A DNA stretch of 64,000 nucleotides from Schumannella luteola. Lineage in GTDB: Bacteria; Actinomycetota; Actinomycetes; Actinomycetales; Microbacteriaceae. Position numbers and translations under genes: made by a program. Below are positions 6,401 to 36,452 of this stretch, piece by piece; within the stretch, counting starts at the first letter, position 1; each line of letters starts with the position of its first letter. A model generated the notes under the pieces. That model was not told the origin of the DNA and made no database searches. It saw only the letters and a program-made list of their open reading frames with translations. The DNA is taken from positions 2,542,001 to 2,606,000 of the forward strand of contig NZ_JACBZY010000001.1 in assembly GCF_013408685.1 (NCBI RefSeq). The letters are read 5' to 3'.

Positions 6401-8793
<2,393 letters not shown>

Positions 8794-16138: not shown

Positions 16139-16699
16139 ATGCACGCGGACGACGAGGACACGCGCCCGGGCGCCGTGATGCCGCTCTCGCCGCCGCCGGT
16201 GCGTCGCGACGACCTCGACGACACGGTGCAGCTGAGCACGCAGACGCGGCACCGGCTGCTGCGGGAGCCCGCGGGCCTCGCGGCGTCGCCGCCCGCGGCC
16301 CGGGCTCCGCAGCCCACCGCCCATCTGACGCTTCGAGTGAGTGTCGGGGGCGCCGCGCCGCTTCCGCTGAGCGCGCCGGTCATCGTCGGCCGGGCGCCTC
16401 GGGCGCCGCGCATCCCCGACGGTCTCGCCCCGGTTCTGGTGCGGGTCGCATCCCCGCTCGGCGAGATCAGCTCGGCGCACGTCGAGCTCACCGAGGTCGG
16501 CGCGGCGGTGGTCGTGCGCGACCTGCGGTCGACGAACGGCACCCGCGTGCTGGCGCCGGGCACGGCGGCGCGGATGCTGGGGCCGGGGGAGTCGGCGGTG
16601 GTTCCGCCGGGTACGGTGATCGAGCTGGGCGACGGTGTCGCCCTCGAGGTGCTGGCGCCCGGAGTCGCCGCGCCGCAGGACGGGGAGGAACCGCGATGA
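16139..16699 (+). CDS. FHA domain protein
   Basis: A 186-residue cytoplasmic protein: about 60 disordered Pro/Ala/Arg-rich residues, then one forkhead-associated domain (roughly residues 70-180). The phosphothreonine-binding residues are in place: the Arg in VIVGRA, Ser/His in ISSAHVEL and Asn in STNGT. FHA domains read phosphothreonine marks. Here the gene overlaps PP2C phosphatase by four bases (ATGA) and is followed by a Ser/Thr kinase, so it is a likely reader in the same circuit. A start at GTG 16136 is possible. The upstream open frame reaches into the Lrp start region and is unsupported. Confidence 0.88.
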   Translation: MHADDEDTRPGAVMPLSPPPVRRDDLDDTVQLSTQTRHRLLREPAGLAASPPAARAPQPTAHLTLRVSVGGAAPLPLSAPVIVGRAPRAPRIPDGLAPVLVRVASPLGEISSAHVELTEVGAAVVVRDLRSTNGTRVLAPGTAARMLGPGESAVVPPGTVIELGDGVALEVLAPGVAAPQDGEEPR

Positions 16700-17466
16700 C
16701 GGTGCTGGGCGAGTACACGGGCGAGATCGCGATCGAGGTCGACGGGGCGGAGCCGGTGCGTCTGGCCTGGGGTGTCGCGAGCGACATCGGCCGCCGCCGC
16801 CAGAACAACGAGGACAGCGCCGTGGTCAAGCCGCCGCTGTTCGCCGTGGCCGACGGGATGGGCGGCCACGCCGCTGGAGACCTCGCCTCGAAGGCCGCTG
16901 TCGTGCGCCTCGACGAGCACGAGCGCGGCGCGCTCGGCACCGAGGACGAGGTGATCGCCCACCTCGAGGACGCGGTCGCCGACATCGCCGAGGTCGCCGC
17001 CGGGGTGCCGGCCGGCGCCGGGACGACCGTGACCGGCGTGGTGCTCGCCGCCGGCGAGGAGGCGCCCGAGCTGCTCGTCTTCAACCTCGGCGACAGCCGC
17101 ACCTACGGCTTCTCGGGCAACGAGCTGCGCCGCATCACGGTCGACCACTCCGTCGTGCAGGAACTCGTCGACGCCGGGGCGATCAGCGAGGCCGAGGCCG
17201 AGTTCCACCCCGAGAGCAACGTCATCACCCGGGCCCTCGGCTTCGCCGAGCATCCGGAGCCCGACTTCACGCGCATCCCCGTGCAGAGCGGCATGCGTCT
17301 GCTGATCTGCTCCGACGGCCTCACCCGCGAGGTCGAGGACGCGCACATCCGACTGCATCTCAGCGCCGGTCTCGACCCGCTCGTGACCGCCGATGCGCTC
17401 GTCGACGCGGCGCTGGCCTCGGGCGGCCGCGACAACATCACGGTGCTCATCGTCGACGTCGGCTGA
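16696..17466 (+). CDS. PP2C-type serine/threonine protein phosphatase
   Basis: A 256-residue metal-dependent phosphatase (PPM family). The conserved motifs occur in order: SDIGRRRQNNEDS, AVADGMGGHAAGD (metal-binding Asp and Gly), NLGDSRTYGF, ICSDGLTREVED and SGGRDNITVLIVD. No transmembrane helix is present, unlike PstP, so it is soluble. Coupled to the FHA gene by an ATGA overlap and 154 bp upstream of the kinase gene, it is the natural antagonist of that kinase, like PrpC of the bifidobacterial PFNA cluster. Confidence 0.95.
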   Translation: MTVLGEYTGEIAIEVDGAEPVRLAWGVASDIGRRRQNNEDSAVVKPPLFAVADGMGGHAAGDLASKAAVVRLDEHERGALGTEDEVIAHLEDAVADIAEVAAGVPAGAGTTVTGVVLAAGEEAPELLVFNLGDSRTYGFSGNELRRITVDHSVVQELVDAGAISEAEAEFHPESNVITRALGFAEHPEPDFTRIPVQSGMRLLICSDGLTREVEDAHIRLHLSAGLDPLVTADALVDAALASGGRDNITVLIVDVG

Positions 17467-17583
17467 CGCCGCTCCGGCGAGTCGCCGGGCGCCCGTCACC
17501 GCGCCGCGCGCCCCCCGATCCGGGGCGGCGCGCGATCGCCCCCCGTTCGGGGGTGGTGCCCGGGATGGGCGGGTGCGCCTGCC

Positions 17584-17589
17584 TACAAT
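17584..17589 (+). promoter_or_regulatory. Candidate -10 upstream of the Ser/Thr kinase
   Basis: TACAAT fits the TAnnnT consensus and lies 31 bp before the TTG start, with a strong AGGAGAGGGGGA ribosome-binding site between. This suggests that the kinase-to-FHA genes can be transcribed separately from FHA-PP2C. GC-rich potential stems occupy the rest of the 154-bp gap. Confidence 0.45.
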
Positions 17590-17620
17590 CGCAACGAGTC
17601 TCGAGGAGAGGGGGACGATC

Positions 17621-19069
17621 TTGGCGCGCCGTCTGCCGTCTCAGCCCCCTGTGCTGCCCGGGTTCTCGTTCGTCCACATCCTCGGATCCGGCGGCTTCGC
17701 CGACGTGTTCCTCTACGAGCAGAACATGCCGCGGCGGCAGGTCGCGGTCAAGGTGCTGCTCAACGAGGTCGTCAACGAGAACGTGCGCCAGATGTTCCAG
17801 GCCGAGGCGAACCTCATGGGCCAGGTCAGCGCGCACCCCTCCGTGCTCACGGTGCACTCGGCCGGCGTCTCGGCCGACGGACGGCCCTACCTCGTGATGG
17901 AGCTCTGCTCGGCGATGCTGAGCGAGCGCTACCGACGCGAGCGCATCCCCGTGCCCGAGATCCTCCGCGTCGCCGTGACGATCGGCAGCGCGATCGAGAC
18001 CGCGCACCGCACGGGCGTGCTGCACCGTGACATCAAGCCCTCGAACATCCTGCTCACCGCCTACGGACACCCCGTGCTGAGCGACTTCGGCATCGCCTCG
18101 ACGCTGAGCACCGATGTGATCGAGGAGTCGATCGGGCTCTCGATCCCGTGGTCGGCCCCCGAGGTGCTCATGGATGAGACGACGGGAACCGTCGCCTCGG
18201 AGGTGTGGGCCTTCGCCGCCACCATCTACTCGCTGCTCGCCGGACGCTCGCCGTTCGAGATCCCGGACGGCGCCAACAGCTCCGCCGACCTGATGGGCCG
18301 CATCAACCGCGGCCGCCCGCAGCCGATCGGCCGCCCGGATGTGCCGGCCAGCCTCGAGCAGGCGCTGCGGCGCGCGATGTCGCGGCGTCCGGAGCAGCGC
18401 CCCGGCAGCATCATCGAGCTCGTGCGCGAGCTGCAGCTGGTCGAGTCGGAGCTGGGCGTCGCGCAGACGCCGATCGAGCTGGCGATGGACGAATGGGCGC
18501 TGTCGACGGCGGGCGATCTGGGGGAGCGCACGCGCCTCCGCGCTGCACCCGGCGCGGCGGCTCCCGCCGGCGGCTCCCGCCGACGACGACGGCGCGCGGC
18601 GGCCGCCGCGGTCGCGGGCTCCGGTGATCAGCCGGAGGCGGCTCGCAGCGCCCCGCGCGAGTCGGGCGGGGCGGTCCCGTCGTCGGGCCGCGCCGGCGCC
18701 GCGGGCGGACGCCGCGGTCCGAACGGCTGGCTGATCGGCACCATCGCGGCGCTCGTCGCCGTGATCGGCGTCATCGTCGGCGTGCTCGTGTACTCGACTC
18801 AGGATGCGCAGTCGATCCCGCGCGTCGCCGACATCCGCGACAGTCAGTCGAACGGCACGGTGCGTTTCAGCTGGGATGACCCGGGGCTCGGTTCCGGCGA
18901 CCGCTACTCGGTCGCCGTCGATGACGACACGCCGAGCTTCCAGCAGGCGAACTCCTTCAAGGTGGATGCGGCCGCCGGCTCGACCGTCTGCATCACCGTG
19001 ACCGTCAACCGCGGCGGGCGCGCCGGCGAGCCGAGCTCGCCGAAGTGCGTCGACATCGTGGCGGGCTGA
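17621..19069 (+). CDS. Membrane Ser/Thr protein kinase with FN3-like ectodomain
   Basis: A 482-residue Hanks-type kinase. The kinase domain spans about residues 15-280: the Gly loop GSGGFADVF, lysine K44 in VAVKVL, catalytic D137 in HRDIKPSNILL, and DFGIAS. A basic, Ala/Gly-rich linker precedes one membrane helix at about 368-391. The remaining 90 extracytoplasmic residues look like a single fibronectin type III-like sandwich (TVRFSWDDP, ITVTVNRGGRAGEPSSP), not PASTA repeats. The TTG start is chosen because a strong ribosome-binding site lies six bases upstream. Probably homologous in role to Pkb2 of the bifidobacterial PFNA cluster. Confidence 0.93.
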   Translation: MARRLPSQPPVLPGFSFVHILGSGGFADVFLYEQNMPRRQVAVKVLLNEVVNENVRQMFQAEANLMGQVSAHPSVLTVHSAGVSADGRPYLVMELCSAMLSERYRRERIPVPEILRVAVTIGSAIETAHRTGVLHRDIKPSNILLTAYGHPVLSDFGIASTLSTDVIEESIGLSIPWSAPEVLMDETTGTVASEVWAFAATIYSLLAGRSPFEIPDGANSSADLMGRINRGRPQPIGRPDVPASLEQALRRAMSRRPEQRPGSIIELVRELQLVESELGVAQTPIELAMDEWALSTAGDLGERTRLRAAPGAAAPAGGSRRRRRRAAAAAVAGSGDQPEAARSAPRESGGAVPSSGRAGAAGGRRGPNGWLIGTIAALVAVIGVIVGVLVYSTQDAQSIPRVADIRDSQSNGTVRFSWDDPGLGSGDRYSVAVDDDTPSFQQANSFKVDAAAGSTVCITVTVNRGGRAGEPSSPKCVDIVAG

Positions 19070-19076
19070 GGTCGAC

Positions 19077-22000
19077 ATGAGACGCTGGCTCGCAGCCCGC
19101 AAGGGCGCTGTGGCGACCGCGCTGAGCGGAACCGTCATCACCGCCGTGGTGGCGGCCGGCGCCATCCTCTCGAACGGCTACTCGGCGCAGCAGCTCGACC
19201 TCGATCCCGGCTCGGTCTGGGTGGTCAACGACGCCGAGCAGGCCGTCGGCCGCGTGAACACCCAGGTGCGCGAGCTCGACTCGGTCGTGCGCACGACCGG
19301 CACCGACGTCGAGGTGCTGCAGCACGACGACACCGTGCTCGTGGTCGACCGCAGCAATGCGGCGCTCGATGTGCTCGACCCCGCGACGGGGGAGCTGGGC
19401 GAGACGGTGGCGCTGCCGCCCGAGCAGCCCGAGGCCTGGCTCGCCGGCGACAACGTCGTCATCATGGCGCGCGGCACCGGCGAGGTCTGGATCGTGCCCG
19501 TCGCCGACCTGCAGAGCTTCGACCCCTCGGCCGAGGCGCAGCTCACCTTCGGCAAGGGCTCGGTCGCGGCCGTCGATCCCGACGGCGTCCTCTGGGCCTA
19601 CGGGCCGTCGACGGGCGAGGTGTACCGCGTCGACGCCGCCGCCGGCGCGCTCAAGGCCGACAGCCGCTGGCCCGTCGACCTTCCCCGCGACGACGACAGC
19701 TACGGCATCACCGCGGTCGACGGACGCTGGGCGGTGCTCGACGCGGATGCGCGTCGCATCGCCATGCAGGACCGCGGCGTCGTCGGGCTGCCGACGTCGC
19801 TCGGCGCCGCGAGCGCCCTCGTCGTGCAGCAGCCCACCTCCTCGCCCGAGAACGCGGTGCTCGTCGCCGGGAGCGGGGGACTGGTGTCGGTGCCCTTCGA
19901 TGACGGAGCCGTGCGCCGACTCGTGAGCCGCGACGGCGGTGCCGCGGCGGCTCCGGTGGTGCTCGGCGAGTGCCGCTACGCGGCCTGGGCCGGCGGCGCG
20001 GCCTGGCGTCAGTGCACGGGCTCGAGCGAACGCGATCTCGACCTCGAGAAGCTCGGCGGATCGGCGTCGCTGGTGTTCGTGCGCGACGGCAAGCGCCTCG
20101 TGCTGAACGACGTGCGCACCGGGCGCAGCTGGGCGGTGCAGCACGACGGCGAGCTCATCGACAACTGGACGGAGCTGCTCAAGAAGGACGACCAGCAGCA
20201 GATCGTCGACGCCGACGAGGACACCCCGCCCGAGGTGGCCGAGAAGCAGGAGCCGCCGGTCGCCGTCGACGACGAGTTCGGCGCGCGCCCCGGTCGGGCG
20301 ACCGTGCTGCCGGTGCTGCTCAACGACTACGACCCCAACGGCGACGTGCTCGTCATCGACTCGGCGGATGCCCTGCCCGAGCAGCAGGGCCGACTCGACC
20401 TGATCAACCGCAACCAGCAGCTGCTGCTGACCCTGCCGGCCGAGGCGAGCGGCGCGCTGTCGTTCGGCTACACGATCTCCGACGGGCACGGCGGATTCGC
20501 GTCGGCGACGGTGCGGGTGACGGTGCGCCAGCCCGGGGAGAACTCGCCGCCGGTGCAGGTGCGCGCCTCCAAGACGACGGTGCGCGCGGGCGGCGAGGTC
20601 ACGACCCAGGTGCTGGGCGACTGGATCGACCCGGACGGCGATGCGATGTACGTGCGCGGCGCATCGGTGCCGGCACCCGACCGGGTCAGCTCGAAGCCGG
20701 ATGGCGCGGTGCTGTTCTCCGACCTCGGCGAGGGCGGCGACCTCAAGACGGTGACGCTCGTGGTCTCCGACGGCATCGCCGACGGCACCGGCTCGCTCGC
20801 CATCACGGTGCGGGCCGCCGGTCAGGTGCCGATCATCGCCGATCCGTTCCCCGTGATCGCCTACGCGGGCCAGACCATCACGGTCTCGCCGCTCGAGCAC
20901 GTGCGCGGCGGCAACGGGGCGGTGCGCCTCAACGCGGTCCCGGCGAAGTCGGGCGCCACGGTCGTGCCGAGCTTCGACTCCGGCACCTTCACCTTCGTCA
21001 GCGACCAGGTGCGCACGCACAACCTCGAGTACGTGGTCACCGACGGCACGCAGACCGTCACCGGTCAGGTGCGCATCGAGGTGCTGCTGCCGCCCGACGC
21101 GAATGCGAAGCCGATCACGATCCCGAAGACGGTGTTCGTGCATCCGCTCGACAGCCAGACCCTCGATGTCGCCGGCAGCGACAAGGACCCGGCGGGCGGG
21201 GTGCTCATGGTGACGGCGCTGACGGACGTGCCGCCCGGGCAGCTGCAGGCCGAGGTGCTCGAGCAGCGCTCGGTGCGGGTCACGCTCACGACGCCTCTCG
21301 AGCACGCCGTGACGTTCGGCTACCGCATCACCAACGGCCTCGCCGAGTCGACGGGCACGATCACGGTCGTGCAGATCCCGTTCCCGAGCGTCGTGCAGCC
21401 GCCGATCGCGCGCGACGACACCGCGACCGTGCGCGTCGGCGACATCATCGACATCCCCGTGCTCGACAACGACGAGCAGCCGGACGGCCAGGAGATCACG
21501 CTCGACCCCGTGCTGCCGCGCGACGTGCCCTCGGGATCGGGGCTGCTGTTCGCGTCAGGTGACCGGCTGCGATTCCTGGCACCGTCGCAGGCCGGCACCT
21601 TCACCGCCGCGTACCAGATCAGCTCCCTCGGGCAGACGGCCCAGGCCGAGGTGAAGATCTCGGTGCGCGAGCGCGACACCGCGACCAACAACCCGCCGGT
21701 GCCGCGCCAGGTGACCGCGCGCGCGATCGCGGGCGAGACCGTCGACATCCGCATCCCGCTCGATGGCATCGACCCGGATGGCGACTCCGTGCAGCTGCTC
21801 GGCCTCGCGACGAACCCCGAGAAGGGCTCCGTCACCTCGACCACGGCGACCGGCATCGTCTACCAGGCGGGCGCCTACTCGAGCGGAACCGACACCTTCA
21901 CCTACACGGTCATGGACGGACTCGGGGCGCGGGCCACCGGCACCATCCGCGTCGGCATCGCGGCGCGCGTCGACGCCGGTCGCAACCCCGTCGCGGTGCC

Positions 22001-25000
22001 CGACGCCGTCACAGCACGCCCGGGCACGACCGTGACGATCCCGGTGCTCGACAACGACTCCGACCCCGACGGCGGGCAGCTCAGCGTGACCGCGGTCACC
22101 CCGAACGACGCGACCGTCAAGGCGAACGTGGTGGATGCGCGCTACGTGCGCGTGCAGGTGCCGCGCGATGAGGGCACCTACGGCCTCGTGTACACGATCG
22201 AGAACGCCACGGGCGGCACCGCCTCCGACTTCATCACGCTCACCGTGGCGACCGATGCGCCCCTGTCGCGTCCGGTCGCCGACGACACCGTGCTCACCGT
22301 CACCGATGTGCTCGGCAAGCGCACGATCAGCGTGCCCGTGCTCGACAACGTGTTCTTCGCCGACGGGGCGGTGTCGAGTCTCGGGGTGGAGCTGCTCTCC
22401 GGCTACTCCTCGGATGCCCGCGTGCTCGCCGACAAGCGCATCCGCGTCACGGTGGGCGACGCCAGTCAGATCATCCCCTTCGCGGTCGTGCACCCCAAGG
22501 ACCCGAACGTGCGCGCCTACGCCTTCCTGCGCGTGCCCGGCTACGACGATGCGCTCCCGCAGATCGACACCCGCGCGCCGAAGATCACCGTGCGCAGCGA
22601 ATCGACCGTGCGCATCGACCTCAACGACTACGTCGTCGCGCTCGGCGGCACGCGCGTGCGGCTCACCGACAGCAGCAGCGTGCGGGCGACCCACGCCGAC
22701 GGCAGCAGCCTCGTCGTCGACGACGACACCCTGCAGTACACCTCTGCCGATCAGTACTTCGGCCCGGCGTCGATCTCCTTCGAGGTCGCCGACGGCGACC
22801 CGACCGACCCGAAGACGCGCAGTGCCGTGCTGTCGCTGCCGATCCAGGTCGAGCCGCGCCAGAACCAGCCTCCGGTCTTCACCGGTGCGAGCCTCGAGTT
22901 CGAACCCGGTCAGCAGCGCGAGGTCGACCTGGTGCGCCTGACGAACTACCCCTACGCGAAAGACCTCGACGAGCTCGCCTACTCGCTCGCCGGCGGCAGC
23001 CCGGGCGGGTTCCGCGTGCAGGTGAACGGGCAGCGGCTCGTCATCACCGCCGACGACTCCGCGGCGAAGGGCACGCAGGCCTCGGTCACGCTCGGCGTGC
23101 GCGACCGCGACAACACCGGCACCGCCGGGCGCATCCAGCTTAAGGTCGTCTCGTCGACGAGACCGCTGGTGCGGCCCGTCGCCGACCAGGCGATCGCCCA
23201 GCGCGGGCAGACCACCACCGTCGACGTGCTCGCGAACGACCTCGCGAACAATCCCTTCCCGGGCAGCCCGCTGCGGGTGATGGATGTGCGCGGACTCGAC
23301 TCGGCGTCGCTGCCGGCCGGCGTCAAGGTCACTCCGAGCGCCGACAACAGCAGGCTCACCGTCCAGGTGGCGGCCTCGGCCGCGCCCGGCGACACGAACC
23401 TGCAGTACCAGGTGGCCGACGCCACCCGCGATCCCGACCGCTACGTCTGGGGCAGTGTGCGCATCTCGGTGCAGGACCGCCCCGACCCGGTCAGCGGCGT
23501 GCGCGTGACCGAGTTCGGCGACCGCAGCCTGCGCATCGGCTTCTCGCCCGGGCCGGCCAACAACTCGCCGATCACCTCCTACGAGGTCGCGCTGACCCGC
23601 GGCGACGGCAGCGTCACCACGACGAAGTGCAGCGGCTCCTCGTCGTGCAAGGTCACGACCCCGGGCAACGGGCCGAGCAACGCCGTCGGCGTCAGCGTCA
23701 CCGCGATCAACGCGATCGGCCGCTCGGACGCGACGGCGCTGGCCGGCACGATCTGGTCGGACATCATCCCGCCGGCGCCCACCTCGCTGAACTCGACGCC
23801 GCTCGACACGGGGCTGCGCGTCACCTGGACCAAGCCCGACGCCGACGCCGCGGGCAGCCCGATCACCTACTACGTCGTCACCGTCGGGGGCATCTCGCGC
23901 ACCGTCTCGGTCGATCCGGGCGACGCGACCGGCACCGCCTACTCCGCGTCGGTGACCGGAACGTCGATCATCAACGGCAGTTCCGTCGGCTACACCGTGA
24001 GCGCCCGCAACAGCGCCCCGAACTCGCTCGCCGTCTGGAACGAAGCGGCCGGCACGGGGACGCCGGCCGGCGCGCCGATCGCGACCACCTCGCCGAGCGC
24101 CTCCGGGGTGGGCACTGCGCAGGTGACCCTGGGATGGTCCGGCGTCTTCTCGCCCAACGGAAGCGACATCCGGCGCTACTACGCGGTCGCCTACGTCGCC
24201 GGGGGAGCCGTGCCCGTCTGCACGGTCACCGGCGTCGACACCGGGAATCCGATGGTCAGCGTCGAGCCGACGGGCGCGAAGGTCGATCGTCTCGACAGCA
24301 GCTTCACCTCGACGACCTTCACCGGGCTCACGACCGACACCAGCTATCTGCTCGTCGTCTTCGCCTACAACCGCCAGGGCTGCACCCCCTCGGCCTCGAT
24401 CCCGTTCACGCCGCGCGTCGTTCCGCCGCGCGTGACCGCCGTGAATGCCGTCGCGCCCGATCCGGCCGCGGCGGCGGGTGACGGCCTCGGCGACTTCAGC
24501 CTGGGCAGCGACTCGGTGTCGCCCGCCGGCGCCTACGACGTCGTGCGCTACCGACTGAGCGGCGACGGCGTCGACTCCACCGTGATGGGGCCGGTCACGC
24601 CCGGCCAGAACGCCTACCTGCGCGCCAGCAACGGCTCGCACTACGGCAAGCGGGTGTCGCTCGAGGTGCAGGGCTGCAAGAAGTACGGCGAGCTGGTCTC
24701 CTCCAGCAATCCGGACGGCCTGCTGTGCAACCCGAACTTCTCGGACCCCGTGGAGATCGGCGTGCCGGTGCGGCTGGCCATCGACGGGATCACGCACGAC
24801 ACGCCCGACGGCATCACCAGCGTCACCACGACATGGTCGTGGACCTCCACCAGCTTCAGCCCGGTCTACGACAGAGTTGAGGTCAGCTGCGACGGACGGT
24901 CCACCTGGACCGCCCTGAACGACGCCGGCCCCGGAAGCTGCGTCGGCGACAGCCCCCTGCCCCTCCTGACCGGCTGGAAGCCGCTCATCATCCGGATCAC

Positions 25001-25040: not shown

Positions 25041-26041
25041 ACGGCACGACGGCGTTCCCCGCCCAGCGCGTGACCATGACGGCCGAGCAGGCCACCTGGT
25101 ACCAGGACACCTTCGCGCGCCTCGTCGCCAACGTCGAGAACGTGCTCGTCGGCAAGACCTTCGTCGTCCGCCTCGGCTTCGTCGCCTTGCTCAGCGAAGG
25201 CCACCTGCTGCTCGAGGACTCGCCCGGCACCGGCAAGACCTCGCTGGCCCGCGCGATCGCGCAGAGCGTCGAGGGCAGCTCGAGCCGCATCCAGTTCACG
25301 CCCGACCTGCTGCCCGGCGACATCACCGGCGTCAGCATCTACGACCAGCGCAGCGGCGCCTTCGAGTTCCACCTCGGGCCGGTGTTCGCGAACATCGTGC
25401 TCGCCGACGAGATCAACCGCGCCTCGCCGAAGACGCAGGCCGCGCTGCTCGAGGTCATGGAGGAGCGCCACATCACCGCCGACGGCGTCGAGCACTCGGT
25501 GGATGCGCCGTTCATGGTCATCGCGACCCAGAACCCGATCGAGCAGGCCGGCACCTACCGCCTGCCCGAGGCGCAGCTCGACCGCTTCCTGCTCAAGGCG
25601 TCGATCGGATACCCCGACCACGCCTCGACCCTCCGCATCCTCGAATCGGCGGGCACCCGTTCGCACGAGGTGCGCCTCGACCCGGTGATCGGCGCGCAGC
25701 AGGTCGTCGAGCTGGCCCGCCTCGCCCGCACGGTGCACGTCGACCCGACCATCAACGACTACGTCTCGCGCCTGGTCGAGGCGACGCGCACCGCGACCGA
25801 GGTGCGCCTCGGCGGCAGCGTGCGCGCGGCGCTCGCGCTCATCCGCGCCTCGAAGACCCTCGCGGCCGCCTCGGGACGTCACTACGTCATCCCCGACGAC
25901 GTGAAGGCGCTGGCCGAGCCGGTGCTCGCGCACCGCCTCGTGCTCGACCCCGAGGCGGAGTTCGACGGCGTCACGACCTCGGGCGTCATCTCCCAGATCC
26001 TCATCGAGACCCCGCCGCCGAGCGATCGGCAAGCCGTGTGA
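25034..26041 (+). CDS. MoxR-family AAA+ ATPase (first copy)
   Basis: A 335-residue MoxR ATPase. Walker A is LEDSPGTGKTSLARA (about residues 56-70), Walker B is IVLADEINRASPKTQAALLEVMEE, sensor 1 is FMVIATQNPIEQAGTYRLPEAQLDRF, and a lid domain follows. MoxR proteins act as chaperone-like partners of DUF58/VWA proteins. The GTG lies inside the end of the giant FN3 gene and the stop overlaps the DUF58 gene by four bases, so translation of the three is coupled. Confidence 0.95.
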   Translation: MVDGTTAFPAQRVTMTAEQATWYQDTFARLVANVENVLVGKTFVVRLGFVALLSEGHLLLEDSPGTGKTSLARAIAQSVEGSSSRIQFTPDLLPGDITGVSIYDQRSGAFEFHLGPVFANIVLADEINRASPKTQAALLEVMEERHITADGVEHSVDAPFMVIATQNPIEQAGTYRLPEAQLDRFLLKASIGYPDHASTLRILESAGTRSHEVRLDPVIGAQQVVELARLARTVHVDPTINDYVSRLVEATRTATEVRLGGSVRAALALIRASKTLAAASGRHYVIPDDVKALAEPVLAHRLVLDPEAEFDGVTTSGVISQILIETPPPSDRQAV

Positions 26042-27453
26042 GCGCACCCGGCTCACCGCGCAGCACCGGGTCGCCCCGCGGAGCGACCCAGCGCACCGGC
26101 ACGCGCTCGCTCGACCCGCACACCCGCACCGACACGCTCAGCAACACGCGCACCCGCATCGTCGGCGCGCGCACCGGCGTGCTCGCGGACGGGGTCGTCG
26201 GCGTCGTGCGGATCGGGCGGCGGGTCGGCGATGCGGTCGGCGACGTCGCCCGCCGGGTGTCGTCGGTCGTCACCACGCTCGGCTGGGTCGTGCTCGCACT
26301 GCTCATCGCCGCGGGCCTCGTCGGCTACGTGCTGCTCGGCTGGGTCGAGGCGGTCGTGCTGTTCTGGATCGCGATCGTGCTCGTGCTCGTCGCGGTCGTG
26401 TCGCTGATCGGCCGCAACGCCTTCGCCGTGACGCTCGAGCTCGAACGGCACAAGGTGGTCGTGGGCGAGCCGGCCACCGCGGCGATCAGCGTGCGCAGCA
26501 CCGGCGCGCACCGCTCGCTCGGCGCGACCGCCGAGATCCCCGTCGGCGACGGACTCGCCGAGGCGGCGATCCCGAGCCTCCGCCGCGACGGGGTGCACCG
26601 CCAGGAGTTCGCGGTGCCGACCGGGCGACGTGGCGTCGTGCCGATCGGCCCGGTGCGCACGGTGCGCGCCGACCCGGTCGGTCTGGTGCGTCGCGAGCTC
26701 ATCTGGACCGGCCGCGAGGAGCTCGTCGTGCACCCGCGCACGATCGCCATCCCCTCGACCAGCACGGGCCTCATCCGCGACCTCGAGGGTGCGGCGACCA
26801 CCGACCTCACGCCGAGCGATGTGTCCTTCCACGCGCTGCGCGAGTATCAGGCGGGGGATGATCGGCGTTACATCCACTGGAAGTCCACCGCGAAGACCGG
26901 CACCTACATGGTGCGGCAGTTCGAGCAGACCCGCCGCAGCCACCTCGTCGTCGGGCTGAGCACCGCCGAGGCGGACTATCTCGATGCGGAGGAGTTCGAG
27001 CTCGCCGTGAGCGTCGCCGGCAGCCTCGGCGTGCGCGCGATCCGCGACGGGCGCACCGTCTCGGTGGTCGTGGGCGAGAAGACGCCCGAGTTCGCGAAGC
27101 GCCGTGTCTACGCCGTGCGTCCGCTCTCGACGGTGCGCCCGGGCCGCCTGCTCGACGATCTCGCCGTCGTCGCCTCCGACGAGAACGCGCTGCCGGTGCG
27201 CGACGTCGCCCGTGTGATCGCCGACACCGTCACCGGCGTCTCGATCGCCTTCCTGGTGACCGGCTCCCGCACGGCGCTGGCCGACCTGCGAGCGGCATCC
27301 GCGGCGTTCCCCGCCGACGTCGAGGTCGTCGCGGTCGTCTGCGATCCGGATGCGCGGCCGGGTCTGCGTCGGGTTCCGGGCCTCAACGTGCTGCGGGTCG
27401 GCCTGCTCGACGACCTGCGGCAGTCCCTCGCCCGTGCGGCGGCGGTGTCATGA
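26038..27453 (+). CDS. DUF58 protein (first copy, membrane-bound)
   Basis: A 471-residue protein. Two adjacent hydrophobic helices lie at about residues 80-125, followed by a beta-rich segment and then the DUF58 signature FHALREYQAGDDRRYIHWKS with TYMVRQFEQT. The C-terminal third is a VWA-like Rossmann region. DUF58 proteins partner MoxR ATPases. This copy differs from the second one (48655-49542) by its membrane anchor and N-terminal basic tail. Overlaps moxR and the transglutaminase-fold gene by four bases each. Confidence 0.92.
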   Translation: MSAPGSPRSTGSPRGATQRTGTRSLDPHTRTDTLSNTRTRIVGARTGVLADGVVGVVRIGRRVGDAVGDVARRVSSVVTTLGWVVLALLIAAGLVGYVLLGWVEAVVLFWIAIVLVLVAVVSLIGRNAFAVTLELERHKVVVGEPATAAISVRSTGAHRSLGATAEIPVGDGLAEAAIPSLRRDGVHRQEFAVPTGRRGVVPIGPVRTVRADPVGLVRRELIWTGREELVVHPRTIAIPSTSTGLIRDLEGAATTDLTPSDVSFHALREYQAGDDRRYIHWKSTAKTGTYMVRQFEQTRRSHLVVGLSTAEADYLDAEEFELAVSVAGSLGVRAIRDGRTVSVVVGEKTPEFAKRRVYAVRPLSTVRPGRLLDDLAVVASDENALPVRDVARVIADTVTGVSIAFLVTGSRTALADLRAASAAFPADVEVVAVVCDPDARPGLRRVPGLNVLRVGLLDDLRQSLARAAAVS

Positions 27454-29786
27454 GCACCCGGACCGCTGCGCCGGCGCGCGGCCGGACGCGCACCCGCGAA
27501 CGGCTGCGTCCGCTGTTCGCCGTCACGACCATCCTCATCTTCTGGGCGCTCATCGCGATCGGCGCGGCCGGGTTCTGGCCCGTCTACCGCGACCTGAGCT
27601 TCGTCGTCGCGGCCGGCGGCGCCGTGCTGGTCGGCACGCTGCTGGCGGTCGTCGCCGCCGTGTTCCGCTGGCGGGCCTGGGCGCTCATGCTCGCCGCCTT
27701 CCTCGCCTTCCTCGCGACCGGGGTTCCGCTCGCGGTGCCCTCGCAGGCGGCGCGCGGCGTCGTGCCCACGGTCGAGGGTCTGACCTCGCTCGTGTCGGGC
27801 GTCGCCCTCGGCTGGCGGCAGCTGCTCACCATCACGCTGCCGGTCGGCGACTACCAGGCGCTTCTCGTGCCGGCGTTCGCGTCGATCCTCGTCGCCACCG
27901 TCGTCGGGCTCTCGGTCGGGCTGCGCGCCCGTCACGGCGAGCTCGGCGCGATCCCGCCGGCCGTCGTGCTCGTGCTCGGGATCGCCTTCGGGCCCGAGCG
28001 GGCCGCGTTCGGCGGCGCTCTCGCCGGCGGAGCCCTCGCGATCACGCTGATCTGGTGCGTCTGGCGCCGCGCCGCGCGACGACGCGAGGCCGTGCGCCGA
28101 CTGCTCGGCTCCTCGGCGGCCGCGTCGGAGCGATCGCTCGGCACACGGTCGCTCGCCGCCGCCCTCGCCATCCTGCTGCTCGCCGGCGCCGGATCCGGCG
28201 TCGCCGCCGTGCAGCTCGCGCCCGGCGTGCCGCGTGCGGTGCTGCGCACGGCCGTCGTGCAGCCCGTCGACCCGCGCGACTACGCGAGCCCGCTCGCCGC
28301 CTTCCGCGGCTACCTGAAAGACGGCGCCGACGAGGACACGATGCTGCGCGTCAGCGGCCTCGGCGAAGGCCAGCGCATCCGCATCGCCACCCTCGATGCC
28401 TACGACGGCGTCGTCTACCGCAGCGGAACCGGCAACGCCGACGGCGGCTCGGGCAGCTTCGTCCGCGTGCCGACGAGCCTCGACCGCTCGGGCGACCAGG
28501 GGCAGCCGATCTCCGTCTCCATCCAGGTGGCCGACTATCGCGGAGTCTGGCTCCCCACCGTGGGCGATCTGACCTCCGTCGACTTCTCGGGCTCCGACGC
28601 GGAGGCGCTGCGTGGACGCTTCTACTACGACCGCGTCAGCGGCACCGGCGCCGTCCTCGGCGGTGTCGGCGCGGGCGACAGCTACCGCGTCGACGCGATC
28701 GAGCCGAGCACGCCGACGGCCGTGCAGCTCGCCGCGGCGACGCCCGGATCGGCGCGCGTGCCGGCGGCGAAGTCGGTTCCGGATGCCGTCGGCACCCGGG
28801 TCGAGGAGTACACCGCGGGTCAGTCGACGCCGGGACGTCAGCTGCAGGCCGTGCTCGACGGCCTGCGCCGCGACGGCTACATCAGCCACGGCATCGAGCC
28901 CACCGAGCCCCCCAGTCGCTCGGGTCACTCCGCCGAGCGCATCAGCGACCTGCTGACCTCGCCGCTCATGATCGGCGACGCCGAGCAGTACGCGGTCGCG
29001 GCCTCGCTCATGGCGCGGCAGATCGGCTTCCCGACGCGCGTCGTGGTCGGCTTCGTGCCGTCGGACGAGCATCCCGGCGTCATCCTCGGCTCCGACATCT
29101 CGGCATGGATCGAGGTGAACACGGCCGAGTATGGCTGGGTCTCGCTCGACCCGGTGCCGGAGGTGCGCCCGATCCCGGAGGCGCCGCCGCAGGACCCGAC
29201 GCAGATCTCCCGCCCGCAGACCCCGGTCGAGCCGCCGCCGGACGAGCCGGACCCGCGCACCACGCAGAAGACGCCCGACACCACGCAGCAGCCGGACGCG
29301 CCCGACGACGCCTGGCTGCAGGTGATCCTCGCCGTGCTGCGCATCGCCGGGCCCATCGCCCTGCTGCTCGGCCTGCTCGCCTCGCCTTTCCTCGTGGTGG
29401 TGGCCGCGAAGGCGCGCCGGCGTCGACTGCGACGCCGCGCGCGGAGGCCGCTCGATCGCATCAGCGGCGCCTGGGACGAGTTCCGCGACGCCGCGATCGA
29501 CCGCGGCTTCGCCGACATCCCCGCCGCGACGCGCACCGAGTTCGCGGAATCGGTCGGCCTCGCTCAGTCGCGCACTCTGGCGGCTGTCGCCGACCGTGCC
29601 GTCTTCTCCTCCGACGTGGTCGAGCCGGCCGAGGCGGAGCGGATGTGGCGCGCCCTGCGCGAACTCGACAACTCGCTCGATCGCGGCCTGACGCGATGGC
29701 AGCGCATCCGCGCCCGCATCTCCCTGCGGTCGCTCGGCGGCTACTCTGTGCGGAGGCTGCTGCGAGGCAGGAGGACCCGACGATGA
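27450..29786 (+). CDS. Transglutaminase-fold membrane protein, catalytic residues replaced
   Basis: A 778-residue TgpA-type protein: about six membrane helices in residues 25-260, a large extracytoplasmic part with the transglutaminase core at about 500-570, a Pro-rich stalk, one more membrane helix near 625-650, and a basic cytoplasmic tail. The core aligns with the family, but the position of the nucleophilic Cys (usual GxCExxA) reads GDAEQYA, with Ala at 511. The His of HAWxEV is Ser 551 (SDISAWIEV). Only Asp 567 (SLDPV) remains. It is therefore probably a non-enzymatic binding module. Coupled to its neighbours on both sides by ATGA-type overlaps. Confidence 0.88.
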   Translation: MSTRTAAPARGRTRTRERLRPLFAVTTILIFWALIAIGAAGFWPVYRDLSFVVAAGGAVLVGTLLAVVAAVFRWRAWALMLAAFLAFLATGVPLAVPSQAARGVVPTVEGLTSLVSGVALGWRQLLTITLPVGDYQALLVPAFASILVATVVGLSVGLRARHGELGAIPPAVVLVLGIAFGPERAAFGGALAGGALAITLIWCVWRRAARRREAVRRLLGSSAAASERSLGTRSLAAALAILLLAGAGSGVAAVQLAPGVPRAVLRTAVVQPVDPRDYASPLAAFRGYLKDGADEDTMLRVSGLGEGQRIRIATLDAYDGVVYRSGTGNADGGSGSFVRVPTSLDRSGDQGQPISVSIQVADYRGVWLPTVGDLTSVDFSGSDAEALRGRFYYDRVSGTGAVLGGVGAGDSYRVDAIEPSTPTAVQLAAATPGSARVPAAKSVPDAVGTRVEEYTAGQSTPGRQLQAVLDGLRRDGYISHGIEPTEPPSRSGHSAERISDLLTSPLMIGDAEQYAVAASLMARQIGFPTRVVVGFVPSDEHPGVILGSDISAWIEVNTAEYGWVSLDPVPEVRPIPEAPPQDPTQISRPQTPVEPPPDEPDPRTTQKTPDTTQQPDAPDDAWLQVILAVLRIAGPIALLLGLLASPFLVVVAAKARRRRLRRRARRPLDRISGAWDEFRDAAIDRGFADIPAATRTEFAESVGLAQSRTLAAVADRAVFSSDVVEPAEAERMWRALRELDNSLDRGLTRWQRIRARISLRSLGGYSVRRLLRGRRTRR

Positions 29787-30997
29787 ACTGCCGATTCTGC
29801 GGCAGCGCCCTGCCGTCCGGCGCGCTGTTCTGCGGCGAGTGCGGCCGCCCTGCCGCGGCGAGCCCGACCGGGCAGCCGGTGATCGTCGAGCCCACGCCGG
29901 TGATCGAACGTGCCGAGGTCCAGCCGGCCGCTGTCCAGGAGGCCGCGGTCCAGCCGACCGCGGTCGGAGCCGCTCAGCCCCACGGTGACGTAGCTCGGGA
30001 CGGTGCGGCCGAGGCAGGCGCGTACGAAGCTGCTCACGTGCCTCGCGATGCGGACGCGCCCGGGGCCTTCCACGGGGTGCCGGCGCGCGCTGCACGTCCC
30101 GTGCCGGTGCAGTTGCCAGACGAGTTCCCCGAGTCGGCCGCGTCGGCGGACGCCGGCTACGGACGGCACAGCGGCCCGGTGGCGGCGGAGCGCGTGCCGG
30201 ATCCCGTCGCATCGTCGGAGCCGGCACCGGACGAGCGCCGGCCCGTCGACGCGCCTCCGGCCCTCGTCAGCCCGCTGACGGATTCGGCGATCGACGTGCC
30301 GAGGGCAGACCCGACGCCGGCCCCGGTCGAGGCGCCGGCCGAGCCGCCGCATCGCTCGTCGGGTCGCCGATCCGCCACCGACCCGCTCCCGGCCCCTCCC
30401 GGCGGAGGATCATGGCCGAGCGGGCCGGTGACGCCGCCGCCCGCCGACCCGCCCGCCGTCGCGTCGCCCCCGGCCGTTCCTTCCGCGGCCGTCGGGCCCG
30501 AGGCCGCGCCTCCGCGCGTCGCGCCGGCTCCGAGCGAGCCTCTGCTGCCGGTGCCGGACATCCCGGTGCTGCGACCCCAGGTCGCGCCGGGTCTGCCGCA
30601 GCTTCCCGACGGACAGCGCGAGGTGGCGATCGACCTCGAAGACACCCGCCTGGTGAGCCGTTCGCCGCGCCCGGCGAGCTGGGTTCTGCAGTTCTCGACG
30701 GGGGAGTCGTTCACGGTCAGCGGCAGCGGGCTGATCGGACGCAATCCCTCGGCGCAGCCGGCGGAGTTCATGGATCAGCTCGTCCCGCTCTTCGACGCCG
30801 GCAAGTCGGTGTCGAAGACCCATCTCGAGTTCGGCCAGGACGAGGGCCGCTTCTGGGTGAGTGATCGCTACTCGACGAACGGGTCCGTCATCCGCCCGCC
30901 GGATTCGGAGCCGCGGCGTTGCGAGCCCGGCAGACGCTACCTGGTGTCGCGCGGCACGCGCGTTGACATCGGCGAGCAGTTCTTCGTCGTGAGCTGA
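29783..30997 (+). CDS. Zinc-ribbon and FHA domain protein
   Basis: A 404-residue protein. Residues 1-22 form a double-cysteine zinc ribbon (C3, C6, C17, C20). A 270-residue disordered linker very rich in Pro, Ala and Val follows, and a C-terminal FHA domain spans about 295-404 (SGSGLIGRNP, SVSKTHLEF, YSTNGSVI). The linker contains some Thr and Ser that could be phosphorylated by the cluster kinase, which is inference. ATGA overlap with the transglutaminase-fold gene. It is the second phosphothreonine reader of the cluster and sits next to the FtsK-like motor, reminiscent of FHA components of type VII secretion systems. Confidence 0.88.
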   Translation: MNCRFCGSALPSGALFCGECGRPAAASPTGQPVIVEPTPVIERAEVQPAAVQEAAVQPTAVGAAQPHGDVARDGAAEAGAYEAAHVPRDADAPGAFHGVPARAARPVPVQLPDEFPESAASADAGYGRHSGPVAAERVPDPVASSEPAPDERRPVDAPPALVSPLTDSAIDVPRADPTPAPVEAPAEPPHRSSGRRSATDPLPAPPGGGSWPSGPVTPPPADPPAVASPPAVPSAAVGPEAAPPRVAPAPSEPLLPVPDIPVLRPQVAPGLPQLPDGQREVAIDLEDTRLVSRSPRPASWVLQFSTGESFTVSGSGLIGRNPSAQPAEFMDQLVPLFDAGKSVSKTHLEFGQDEGRFWVSDRYSTNGSVIRPPDSEPRRCEPGRRYLVSRGTRVDIGEQFFVVS

Positions 30998-31084
30998 TCC
31001 CTCCCCAGGGTCGCCGCCGGCCGGTTCTCCCCGATCCGCGCTCGTCCGGCGTCACGGCCGGGTTCGACCGGCTGAACTGGGGGA

Positions 31085-33877
31085 GTGCTTCTGCTTCCTC
31101 ACCCGCGTCGCTTCGATCTCCCGCGGGTCGACGCACCGCCGTCCCGATCCGGTCTGCCGCTCCTCGGCGCGCTCGCGCCCCTGGTGATGGCGGTCGTGCT
31201 CTGGGCCGTGACGCAGTCGATCTTCTCCCTGCTGATCGGGCTGCTGAGCCCGGTGCTGGCTTTCGCCGGACTGCTGGACCGGCGGCTCAGCGCACGCCGA
31301 CAGCGGCGTGACGAGGCGGCTCGCGTGCGGAAGGAGCTCGCCGCACTCGAGCGCCGGCTCTCCGACCATCTGGACGCCGAGCGCGACCGACTCGCCCGGG
31401 CCGCGCGGGGGCCGGCTCGGGTCGGCGCCGGCGCGACGCTCCGGGGCGACGCACTCGAGATGCCGATCGCCCTCGGATCGGCGCAGCTGCCGTCGGCGCT
31501 GGAGTGGCCGACCGACGATCTCGGGCGGCTGCCGGCTGTGCTCGCGGCTGAGGCGCGTGAGGTCATGCGGCGTTCCGACCGCGTTCGCGGCCCGGTCGTC
31601 GTGGATGCGAGGGGCGGGCTCGCCGTGACGATCGAGGGTGACGCGGATGCCGGAGCGACCGGCGCCGCCGTGCGGAGGGCGCTCGCCCTGCGCTGCGCGC
31701 TGGCGCTGCCGGATGACTGGGATCTCCTGGCGCCCGAGGGAGAGGACTGGTGCCGGGGGCTCGCGCGACGGGTGACCACCGCGTCCCCGCCGGAGCAGGG
31801 CGAACCGGTCTCGGGCGGGGAGTGGGTGCTCACCGGGCCGGCGGGCGAGATCCGGATCGGCGTCCCGGAGCGAGCGAGTTCGGCCGCGATGCGCCTCACC
31901 ATCGGCGTCGACGACGCCATGCTGGCAGGCGACGGCGTGACGCATCGGCTGGCGGCGTTCCGACCCCAGCGGGTGAGCCGGGCGCAGGCTGCGCTCGCGA
32001 TCGCCGCCCGGGACCGCGACACATCGCCGGGCGCGACCGCCGGCGAGCTCCCCGCGTCGGTGGACTACGACGAGCTCGCCGGGGTCGTGGGGCGCGCGGG
32101 CGGACTCGCGGCGCCGCTCGGGCTCGCCGTCGATGGGCGCCCCGTGCTCGTCGATCTCGTGGACGACGGTCCGCACGCGATCGTCGGCGGCACCACCGGG
32201 TCGGGCAAGAGCGAGCTGCTCGTCACCTGGGTTCTCGGCATGGCCGCACGAACCCCGCCTTCGCAGCTCTCGCTGCTGCTCGTCGACTTCAAGGGCGGTG
32301 CCGCGTTCGCACCGCTGGAGCAGCTGCCCCACGTCGTCGGTGTGCTGAGCGATCTCGATTCGCAGGCCGCCCGACGAGCCGTCGTGAGCCTGCGCACCGA
32401 ACTGCTGCGCCGCGAGCGGATGCTCGCCGAGCGACGTGCGCGGTCGATCGAGGAGCTCGATCCGGGGTTGATGCCGCGGCTCGTCGTGGTCGTCGACGAA
32501 TTCGCCGCGCTCATCGCGGAGCAGCCCGAGCTCGGCGCGGTCGTGACCGATCTCGCCGCGCGCGGTCGATCGCTCGGCATCCACCTGGTGCTCTGCACCC
32601 AGCGGCCGGCCGGGATCGTGAAGGACGCCGTGCTCGCGAACGCGACGCTGCGGGTGAGTCTGCGGGTGAACAACCGCCACGACAGCAGCTCGGTGATCGG
32701 CAGCGACGCCGCGGCCGAGCTGCCGAGCCTGCCGCGCGGGCGCGGCGTGCTGGCGGTCGAGGGCCGGCCGGTGCCGATGCAGGTCGCCCGCGCGACGGAG
32801 TCCGACATCGCCGCGGTTTCCGAGAACTGGCGCGGAGCGCCGACCGCCGCCGCCTTCTGGACCCCGGGGCTGCCGAAGCTGGTCACGCGAGCCGACCTGG
32901 TGAGCCTCCCGGCTCCGCCCGCCCCTGGGCTCGTCTTCGGGCTCGTCGATCTCCCGGAGCAGCAGAGGATCGGCGCGGCCGTCTACGACCCGGCGGTCGA
33001 CGGCCATCTGCTCGTCATCGGCGGGCGCGGCGCGGGCACGACGACGACGCTCGCGGCGATCGCGGAAGCCGCCGGAGCTGCCGCGCTCGTCGGATCGAGC
33101 TGCCTTCCGGACGCGTGGGCGCTCATCCAGCGCGTCGCCGATCTCCCGAGCGCGCCGTCGAAGCACGCAGCCGGGCCGCTCCTGCTCGTCGACGACGTCG
33201 ACCGACTGCTCGACGAAGCCGGCGACGAGGCCCGGGTCGACCTCGCCGCGCTCCTCGTGCGGGCCGCACGCTCGCTCGAGGTCGGCGGGGGCGCCCTCGT
33301 GCTGGGCGCCTCCCGTCCGCTCGGCGGCGTCTCGACGCTGAACTCGGCGATCGACCGGCGCCTGCTCCTCGCGCTCCCGTCGCGCGAGGACCACGTGATG
33401 GCGGGCGGAGACGGTCGGGACTGGTCGGTCCGACGTCGACCCGGATCCGGCATCTGGGGCGGCGCTGAGATCCAGGTCGCGACGGCTCCCGCCCCGCCCG
33501 CCCACGAGATCGAGGTCGCGCGCGTGGCACTCGACCCGACGCAGACCCTCGCGATCGCCACGGGTCGAGTCGGCGTCGTGCGCGAAGGGCTTCGGCACGC
33601 CGGGACGACCACGCTGACCCTCGACGATGTCGACCGTCAGGGCGGCGCTCTGCCGCTCGGGATCCCCGTCATCGGCGACATCGACGACTGGCTCGCCGAC
33701 TTCGGCGCGCTCGATCGCGCACGTCGCAGCGGCCGCCTGCTCGTCCACGCGGCATCCCCGGCCGACGTCCGCGCCCTCACCCGCATCCGTCGACCGCTGC
33801 CGCCGCTCGACCCGCGCCGCGACGAGGCCTGGTGCATCGACGGCCGAGAGGTGACCAGGGTGACGACGCCGTGGTGA
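31085..33877 (+). CDS. EccC/EssC-like FtsK/SpoIIIE ATPase
   Basis: A 930-residue membrane ATPase. Two N-terminal helices (about 22-62) precede a charged coiled segment and an EccC-like domain. ATPase domain 1 has intact Walker A GGTTGSGKSE (from residue 368), Walker B LLVDFKGG, and the family phrase LPHVVGVLSDLDS. Domain 2 keeps LLLVDDVDR, but its P-loop reads GGRGAGTTTT (646-655) with Thr instead of Lys, so it is degenerate. This matches type VII secretion motors more than chromosome-translocating FtsK (no gamma domain). No WXG100 or EccB/D/E genes are nearby. GTG 31085 has no spaced ribosome-binding site. GGGGGAG is correctly spaced only for the CTG at 31091. Confidence 0.88.
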   Translation: MLLLPHPRRFDLPRVDAPPSRSGLPLLGALAPLVMAVVLWAVTQSIFSLLIGLLSPVLAFAGLLDRRLSARRQRRDEAARVRKELAALERRLSDHLDAERDRLARAARGPARVGAGATLRGDALEMPIALGSAQLPSALEWPTDDLGRLPAVLAAEAREVMRRSDRVRGPVVVDARGGLAVTIEGDADAGATGAAVRRALALRCALALPDDWDLLAPEGEDWCRGLARRVTTASPPEQGEPVSGGEWVLTGPAGEIRIGVPERASSAAMRLTIGVDDAMLAGDGVTHRLAAFRPQRVSRAQAALAIAARDRDTSPGATAGELPASVDYDELAGVVGRAGGLAAPLGLAVDGRPVLVDLVDDGPHAIVGGTTGSGKSELLVTWVLGMAARTPPSQLSLLLVDFKGGAAFAPLEQLPHVVGVLSDLDSQAARRAVVSLRTELLRRERMLAERRARSIEELDPGLMPRLVVVVDEFAALIAEQPELGAVVTDLAARGRSLGIHLVLCTQRPAGIVKDAVLANATLRVSLRVNNRHDSSSVIGSDAAAELPSLPRGRGVLAVEGRPVPMQVARATESDIAAVSENWRGAPTAAAFWTPGLPKLVTRADLVSLPAPPAPGLVFGLVDLPEQQRIGAAVYDPAVDGHLLVIGGRGAGTTTTLAAIAEAAGAAALVGSSCLPDAWALIQRVADLPSAPSKHAAGPLLLVDDVDRLLDEAGDEARVDLAALLVRAARSLEVGGGALVLGASRPLGGVSTLNSAIDRRLLLALPSREDHVMAGGDGRDWSVRRRPGSGIWGGAEIQVATAPAPPAHEIEVARVALDPTQTLAIATGRVGVVREGLRHAGTTTLTLDDVDRQGGALPLGIPVIGDIDDWLADFGALDRARRSGRLLVHAASPADVRALTRIRRPLPPLDPRRDEAWCIDGREVTRVTTPW

Positions 33878-33914: not shown

Positions 33915-33938
33915 AGCGCGCGCGATCGCGTGAAATCT

Positions 33939-33951
33939 ATGTTTCGAAACA
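33939..33951. promoter_or_regulatory. Palindromic operator-like motif upstream of potD
   Basis: TGTTTCGAAACA (33940-33951) is a perfect 12-bp palindrome about 93 bp before the potD start. A related GGAACATG lies 14 bp downstream. The same core occurs upstream of yceI. A possible -10 (CACTAT, 33996-34001) follows. The binding protein is unknown. Confidence 0.45.
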
Positions 33952-36451: not shown

Positions 36452-36452
36452 C

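Follow-up and report, generated by a model that had tools for sequence, protein, structure and literature searches.

Are the PFNA genes, described from bifidobacteria, part of a secretion machine? The question is raised by a locus of Schumannella luteola (Microbacteriaceae) in which genes of the PFNA type share a strand with the gene of a motor ATPase resembling EccC and EssC of type VII secretion systems (T7SS). We analysed a 64,000-nt stretch of this genome, hereafter the window (assembly GCF_013408685.1, NZ_JACBZY010000001.1:2,542,001-2,606,000, forward strand; 71% G+C; the host genome is one contig of 3.75 Mb), and find nine plus-strand genes spanning 16139-33877 that encode, in order, an FHA protein, a PP2C-type phosphatase, a Ser/Thr kinase, a giant Ig/FN3 protein, a MoxR ATPase, a DUF58 protein, a transglutaminase-fold protein, a zinc-ribbon-FHA protein and the motor ATPase. 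We put at about 0.52, slightly better than even, the probability that this cluster encodes an envelope machine under phosphorylation control that either descends from an actinobacterial T7SS or is its sister. As read from gene content and neighbourhood, the type VII link is supported via relatives of the cluster more than via the window itself, and the window copy is a reduced variant that probably works like a T7SS and is not a member, because a full ATPase and a WXG100 gene at the locus are both wanting.

A PFNA-type cluster outside bifidobacteria

The published PFNA operon consists of pkb2, fn3, aaa-atp, duf58 and tgm, to which some species add prpC, fha and a hypothetical gene (PMC8430577, PMC6803598). 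In the window all five core genes recur on one strand in unchanged order, together with PP2C and FHA genes, which some PFNA species also have; the window is unlike the bifidobacterial cluster in that PP2C and FHA come before the kinase, and the zinc-ribbon-FHA and ATPase genes come after the transglutaminase-fold gene. PMC8430577 calls PFNA unique to bifidobacteria; a PFNA-type cluster is not confined to them. An initial annotation of this DNA had listed the nine genes on one strand and called the cluster PFNA-like, and open reading frames (ORFs), domain matches and core-gene order bear this out; its proposal that the FHA genes are a new extension of PFNA does not hold, since both fha and prpC are known from the PFNA cluster of B. 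longum (PMC8430577).

The genes are closely packed, with overlaps of 4-7 bp at five of the eight junctions, as had been noted from the start. Four overlaps are of 4 bp (FHA/PP2C, MoxR/DUF58, DUF58/transglutaminase-fold, transglutaminase-fold/zinc-ribbon-FHA) and one is of 7 bp (Ig/FN3-MoxR), the latter presuming that the GTG at 25034 is the MoxR start; gaps of 154 bp, 7 bp and 87 bp separate PP2C from kinase, kinase from Ig/FN3 and zinc-ribbon-FHA from ATPase. Scans of the window for promoters and terminators returned none of either.

In the open-licence PubMed Central literature we found no paper that connects PFNA genes with type VII secretion. Neither FtsK nor type VII is mentioned in the text of PMC8430577, and MoxR, DUF58 and transglutaminase are absent from that of PMC11217815, the paper on the predicted T7SS subtypes discussed below. 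The single bacterial paper found with both "PFNA" and "type VII" in it, PMC12067865, applies the second term to ABC transporters; it also states that the mycobacterial moxR operon resembles PFNA.

EssC beside related clusters and the motor of the window

The evidence that carries the type VII link lies in other families. In a sample of 119 genomes drawn from the order, a transglutaminase-fold match at E<=1e-12 is present in 67 (among the matches listed), 59 of them outside Microbacteriaceae, and in 20 of these 59 an EssC gene lies within 15 kb, always on the same strand (20/20) and with a frame of 1465-1649 aa, where a rough estimate gives about one such genome in 59 by chance. The 20 genomes span eight families (f5, f6, f8, f9, f10, f12, f13, f17); the distance table behind these counts omits the ATPase rows of genomes in which the transglutaminase-fold gene has no row and, for other genomes, a few additional rows on other contigs. 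We read 13 of the 20 loci (G005, G007, G008, G009, G011, G022, G038, G062, G070, G085, G090, G100, G114) and find kinase, PP2C, MoxR, DUF58, the transglutaminase-fold gene and EssC in all 13. The Ig/FN3 protein is matched in 12, in G062 only over query positions 16-364, and gives no match in G114 within a stretch that reaches ~14 kb past MoxR; WXG100 genes lie near 10 of the 13 (not G005, G007 and G070). Gene sets of this make-up so near to EssC suggest that "PFNA" clusters serve as the envelope module in a type VII system under kinase regulation.

A draw across the phylum points the same way. Among 197 genomes, that of the window included, EssC (E<=1e-120) is found in seven and the transglutaminase-fold gene (E<=1e-25) in eight, with both in five (G000, G005, G353, G388, G454; Fisher p 4.9e-7); in all five the two genes lie within 13 kb of each other, in three of them on opposite strands. 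The loci of G388 and G454 were also read in part. EssC stands without the transglutaminase-fold gene in G348 and G427, and the converse is seen in G016, G364 and G420.

The host genome (G000) carries two further clusters of this type, both with type VII genes next to them, in the stretches 1728-1753 kb (L116, L117) and 696-752 kb (L259, L115, L258). Past the second (1728-1744 kb; PP2C, FHA, kinase, a 1856-aa Ig/FN3 protein, MoxR, DUF58 and transglutaminase fold) comes, at a distance of 114 bp, a WXG100 gene (48.7 bits), with a 1553-aa FHA-EssC and a T7SS_signal-domain protein on the other strand. The third (737-752 kb; kinase, Ig/FN3, MoxR, DUF58, transglutaminase fold, FHA, PP2C) adjoins four WXG100 matches, EccB, an EccC-type ATPase (~1700 aa) and a pair of subtilase-type proteases. 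EccC and EccB are encoded once more at 612-619 kb, in a fourth locus of T7SS type. A tree of MoxR sequences sets the main clade of paralogues (17 rows, 100/99) apart from the window-type rows, so the two other copies in the host genome are not recent duplicates.

The motor of the window itself (31085-33877, plus strand, 930 aa) matches FtsK_SpoIIIE with 111.7 bits and the NCBIfam EssC model TIGR03928 with 213.8 bits, far under its equivalog cut-off of 778. It is an EccC/EssC-family membrane ATPase, with N-terminal membrane helices, an EccC-like N-terminal cytoplasmic domain and two ATPase domains (1 and 2), which is short of the full set of T7SS NTPase domains. Residues 6-800 align to positions 223-1299 of the 1553-aa EssC of its own genome (profile of eight sequences), so that EssC's N-terminal FHA region and last ATPase domain have no counterpart; residues 800-930 are unmatched. 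The Walker A GKS of ATPase 1 is invariant in 63 sequences, and the Walker lysine of ATPase 2 is kept in 48 of the 63 and lost in the window protein. With a mean identity of 39%, the ATPase is the most divergent of five cluster proteins compared; its pairwise identities correlate with those of the other cluster proteins at 0.36-0.58, uncontrolled values to which we give no weight. Its closest named relative, at 66% identity, is from Schumannella soli; the genus or family names of the 80 named relatives, where given, we take to be those of Microbacteriaceae.

Given its FtsK-type domain, the protein could instead translocate DNA or belong to a defence system (a MADS-like kinase plus FtsK), and the PADLOC models mad6 and mad8 do match the kinase and the ATPase. 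We regard this as very improbable and rejected it. The best solved matches to a profile of 63 ATPase sequences are EccC (4nh0, E 2.1e-101), YukB and EccC5, ahead of FtsK, and an AlphaFold2 model of the ATPase (pLDDT 89.8, pTM 0.72) has the EccC cytoplasmic domain 4nh0 as its best Foldseek match in the PDB (E 8.7e-33). The other MADS models have no match to the eight cluster proteins scanned, among the matches listed (25 of the 34 for the kinase), and the partners of the ATPase are envelope proteins.

WXG100 genes are missing from the locus and from nearly all loci like it. A WXG100 hidden Markov model built here, whose 19 matches at other loci count one gene twice and which matched no shuffled decoy, matches none of the small ORFs of the window or of 38 window-type cluster loci, in a scan that left out the detached-ATPase loci L158-L177; among the 80 named loci the only match is L225:4170-4538, on the opposite strand ~4.5 kb upstream of the ATPase. 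The cluster proteins have no Pfam match to the WXG100, YukD or EsaA families. The genome as a whole has six WXG100 genes over the cut-off, one of which (2012600-2012854) is away from the three other T7SS-type ATPase loci, and has EccB only at 618 kb and 733 kb. Thus the T7SS feature of a WXG100 gene and the T7SSa feature of EccB, both reported absent by the initial annotation, are indeed absent at the locus, and both are present elsewhere in the genome.

A rival reading has the machine take as substrates in trans WXG100 proteins encoded elsewhere, at the other T7SS loci or by the orphan gene at 2.01 Mb, whose position away from T7SS-type ATPases speaks for this reading. The last ATPase domain in EccC binds the WXG100 export signal. 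PDB entry 4n1a, by its title, holds ATPases 2 and 3 with signal peptide. The window ATPase is without that last domain, and WXG100 genes are as rare at its relatives' loci as given above, which makes supply in trans improbable. Since the motor has no third ATPase domain and no WXG100 gene stands nearby, a WXG100 protein encoded at the locus is an improbable cargo; for the window machine we infer both export and a substrate, and the suggestion of the initial annotation that the large Ig/FN3 scaffold is what is exported finds no support here.

Other short EccC-like ATPases (L064-L076; families f4, f7, f10 and f13) fall outside the window-type clade, and their stretches contain no convincing match to other cluster genes and no WXG100 match. 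Among those listed, an FHA motif is in frame with the ATPase in L069 (f10) and L066 (f13); L073 (f4) and L069 (f10) adjoin genes that we take to be WhiB-like.

Motor and cluster within Microbacteriaceae

How tightly is the motor tied to the cluster? With the transglutaminase-fold gene as cluster marker, 149 Microbacteriaceae genomes were sampled, of which 91 have the ATPase (E<=1e-66) and 123 the marker (E<=1e-30), both among the matches listed. The ATPase gene lies 53-5469 bp downstream of the marker on the same strand in 59 of the 91. Where the marker scores at least 460 bits (82 genomes), 65 have the ATPase, 57 adjacent and eight detached. Co-occurrence of the two genes over the 149 genomes has a Fisher p of 6.5e-7, a value that ignores kinship between genomes and comes from a table that leaves out low-scoring transglutaminase rows.

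We read 22 clusters with the ATPase (L060, L063, L078-L097), 16 without an adjacent ATPase and 25 detached ATPases. All 22 share the order kinase, Ig/FN3, MoxR, DUF58, transglutaminase fold, ATPase; PP2C is present in 21, a C-terminal FHA gene in 18 and FHA1 in 17, and in two of the five FHA1 misses the stretch starts inside PP2C. Detached ATPases have PP2C close upstream in 24 of 25 loci (not L169), the zinc-ribbon-FHA gene in eight and FHA1 in four. Over the 80 named loci, whose flanks extend at most 10 kb and are in some cases shortened by contig ends, the transglutaminase-fold gene is upstream in 46, PP2C without it in 25 and neither in nine.

These detached loci bring in the alternative that two independent units are neighbours here, a PFNA sensor/adhesin operon and a PP2C-FHA-ATPase signalling unit, and that the ATPase does not act on the scaffold. 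It would explain why 24 of the 25 detached ATPases stand beside PP2C without Ig/FN3, MoxR, DUF58 or the transglutaminase fold, and it agrees with the description of the bifidobacterial cluster as a sensing/adhesion operon (PMC8430577). What speaks against it is the strong co-occurrence and repeated adjacency of ATPase and cluster, the standing of the same kind of genes with EssC in other families, and the fate of PP2C in genomes that have both a cluster and a detached ATPase. In the six of eight such genomes for which both loci were read (clusters L108-L113), PP2C is beside the ATPase in all six and gone from the cluster stretch in five; L113 also has one there. On balance we think two separate units unlikely, and the most serious of the competing explanations.

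Several observations nonetheless weigh against a T7SS-derived machine, some of them in favour of two units. No substrate of the machine came to light. The ATPase is not beside the transglutaminase-fold gene in 32 of 91 genomes, 17 of the 82 window-type clusters are without an ATPase at E<=1e-66 (among the matches listed), and five genomes have the ATPase with no transglutaminase match at E<=1e-30 (G132, G204, G206, G218 and G254, the last counted by absence among the matches listed). In the order sample, 39 of the 59 genomes show no EssC within 15 kb, a count in which misses are possible owing to the E<=1e-40 cut, the matches listed and fragmented contigs. The 39 include all seven f4 genomes, which are small, have no EccC-like match within 15 kb of the cluster (G078 has an EssC ~33 kb away) and whose gene order, kinase-FN3-MoxR-DUF58-transglutaminase with PP2C after it in three of seven listings, is that of the published bifidobacterial PFNA. 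Over ~5 kb past the transglutaminase fold, 20 Microbacteriaceae paralogue loci have WXG100 in one and EssC in none. The ATPase tree gathers the window-type sequences in one clade (28 rows, support 100), placed as sister of the EccC-EssC group with a support of only 83-84 and not nested in the EssC of complete systems. The zinc-ribbon-plus-FHA pattern matches in only four of 17 order-level stretches and none of 21 paralogue loci, and C-terminal-FHA homologues are found also beside FHA-fused EssC, from which it follows that the window protein is not a split-off EssC domain. The co-conservation of ATPase and cluster that had been anticipated is therefore real as a tendency, in adjacency and in co-occurrence, and is not obligate; likewise, the neighbourhood comparison proposed by the initial annotation turned up EssC in eight other families and showed none within 15 kb in 39 of the 59 order genomes.

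Beyond the cluster, an AsnC-type regulator and an aminotransferase lie 5' on the opposite strand, and spermidine/putrescine-type ABC transporter genes lie 3' (33930-38167). An ORF family directly follows the ATPase in 63 of 80 loci including the window; we read the ABC-transporter neighbourhood as synteny, outside the system. A conserved ORF of ~77 aa, a small gene or a shadow, occurs 186-562 bp after the ATPase in 22 loci and not in the window. A downstream scan for substrate candidates returned many ORF families, some of them clearly antisense shadows.

Signalling and envelope parts and their possible interplay

What might the nine proteins do together? The signalling genes, all on the plus strand, are FHA protein 1 (16139-16699, 186 aa; Pfam FHA 23.5 bits; residues GR, SSAH, STNG), the PP2C-type phosphatase (16696-17466, 256 aa; PP2C_2 40.4 bits), the kinase (17621-19069; Pkinase 126.7 bits; VAVK, HRD, DFG and APE motifs) and, past the envelope genes, the zinc-ribbon-FHA protein (29783-30997). 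The kinase has one transmembrane (TM) helix at ~372-390 by hydropathy and a short extracytoplasmic part; the TTG start given by the initial annotation lies at 17621 and is preceded by a GA-rich stretch; a GTG at 17573 is also possible. The zinc-ribbon-FHA protein has an N-terminal CxxC...CxxC (Zn_Ribbon_1 20.4 bits, cut-off 25), a long linker and a C-terminal FHA domain (24.0 bits) with GR, SKTH and STNG. Both FHA domains of the cluster keep GR, S-x-x-H/SKTH and NG, which we take to be the phosphothreonine-binding residues.

At several loci a protein of 231-269 aa, with an FHA-like N-terminus and, by eye, a possible winged-helix C-terminus, is encoded 5' of EssC (L139:6220-6915, L141:6669-7388, L145:8865-9584, L153:10042-10776) or, in L148, 5' of the Ig/FN3 gene (7541-8350); the two that were scanned (L139, L148) have no Pfam match.

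The envelope genes, on the same strand, begin with the Ig/FN3 protein (19077-25040, 1987 aa), which matches Big_9 in six stretches and fn3 in two, and has by hydropathy one N-terminal TM segment and no C-terminal one. Its N-terminal region is beta-rich, with a weak profile match to a surface-layer protein, and its single-sequence model is poor (pLDDT 48). The MoxR AAA+ ATPase (25034-26041; AAA_3 205.6 bits) has intact nucleotide-binding motifs, PGxGK[ST] and DE[ILV]NR being found in 67 of 67 relatives, and the DUF58 protein (26038-27453; 42.2 bits) has a membrane segment at ~106-124. The last is a TgpA-type polytopic membrane protein with a transglutaminase fold (27450-29786; TgpA_N 59.8 and Transglut_core 52.4 bits).

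This transglutaminase-fold protein is, by its aligned residues, a conserved pseudo-enzyme without the catalytic Cys. With the catalytic columns located by the motif of the fold, the Cys column is occupied by A, E, D, Q, G or S and has Cys in none of 70 aligned sequences, the window protein included; the His column has His in four of the 70. All seven f4 sequences, of which the alignment includes one, have GDSEQYA. The fold named by the initial annotation thus stands, and the catalytic residues that the name may suggest are missing. The PFNA tgm product is presumed to be a cysteine protease or transglutaminase (PMC8430577, PMC6803598), a description that the absence of the Cys makes doubtful for these proteins. 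MoxR, DUF58 and transglutaminase (TgpA) are a known trio (PMC6803598, citing Wong and Houry 2012), whose three genes form the middle of the window cluster, but here without the catalytic Cys and within a signalling and motor cluster.

Two known kinds of T7SS offer a frame for these parts. In T7SSd and T7SSe, which Garrett and colleagues predicted (PMC11217815), a kinase and a giant Ig protein go together with an EssC that bears an FHA domain. As described there, T7SSd (Olsenella, Bifidobacterium) shares with the window a TM Ser/Thr kinase (TsdD), a giant Ig-like envelope protein (TsdI), an EssC-family ATPase and phosphothreonine-type FHA, the likeness of kinase to TsdD and of Ig/FN3 to TsdI being one of architecture only. 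Features found in T7SSd only are the WXG100 protein TsdA, an FHA fused to EssC, four NTPase domains, TsdH and the C-terminal TM of TsdI; in the window the FHA is on the gene adjacent to the ATPase, and the Ig/FN3 protein has Ig domains but a TM segment at the N-terminus only. T7SSb (EssB/YukC pseudokinase, EssC/YukB, EsaA/YueB) resembles the window in its membrane-anchored kinase fold, and in T7SSb the pseudokinase domain of YukC has been copurified with the motor's FHA region, that of YukB (PMC9600267). Unlike T7SSb, the window keeps kinase active-site motifs and FHA phospho-binding residues, so that a contact between kinase and FHA could be switchable. A precedent within PFNA is that Pkb2 phosphorylates the PFNA MoxR in B. 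longum (PMC8430577).

A phosphorylation-controlled envelope machine could then work as follows. The TM kinase, with a topology like that of EssB/YukC and an intact active site, would phosphorylate itself or a partner; the FHA protein would read the mark and recruit or gate the motor, and the zinc-ribbon-FHA protein may supply in trans the function of EssC's fused FHA by docking the motor to phosphothreonine. PP2C would reverse the phosphorylation and reset the system. MoxR and DUF58 may put the membrane part together. A membrane base and an envelope-spanning scaffold would be provided by the dead transglutaminase protein and Ig/FN3, and the motor would erect the scaffold or move cargo through it.

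A wider proposal, which we offer tentatively and do not hold to be the probable one, is that the PFNA genes are the envelope core of an undescribed kinase-gated T7SS subtype in Actinomycetota, with the kinase in place of EssB, Ig/FN3 in place of EsaA, and the dead transglutaminase together with MoxR/DUF58 as membrane base. The window copy would then be a WXG100-less offshoot with a reduced motor and its FHA in trans, by which a different cargo is moved or erected.

If such a link is true, it would join the work on PFNA and FN3 immunomodulation in bifidobacteria with type VII secretion, and the bifidobacterial immunomodulator FN3 would be part of a secretion system and not a free-standing adhesin. 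The missing catalytic residue casts doubt on the transglutaminase or cysteine protease activity assumed for the PFNA cluster. The window cluster, with its kinase and FHA proteins, would give a genetic handle on the question whether a type VII motor can be turned on and off through contacts between kinase and FHA.

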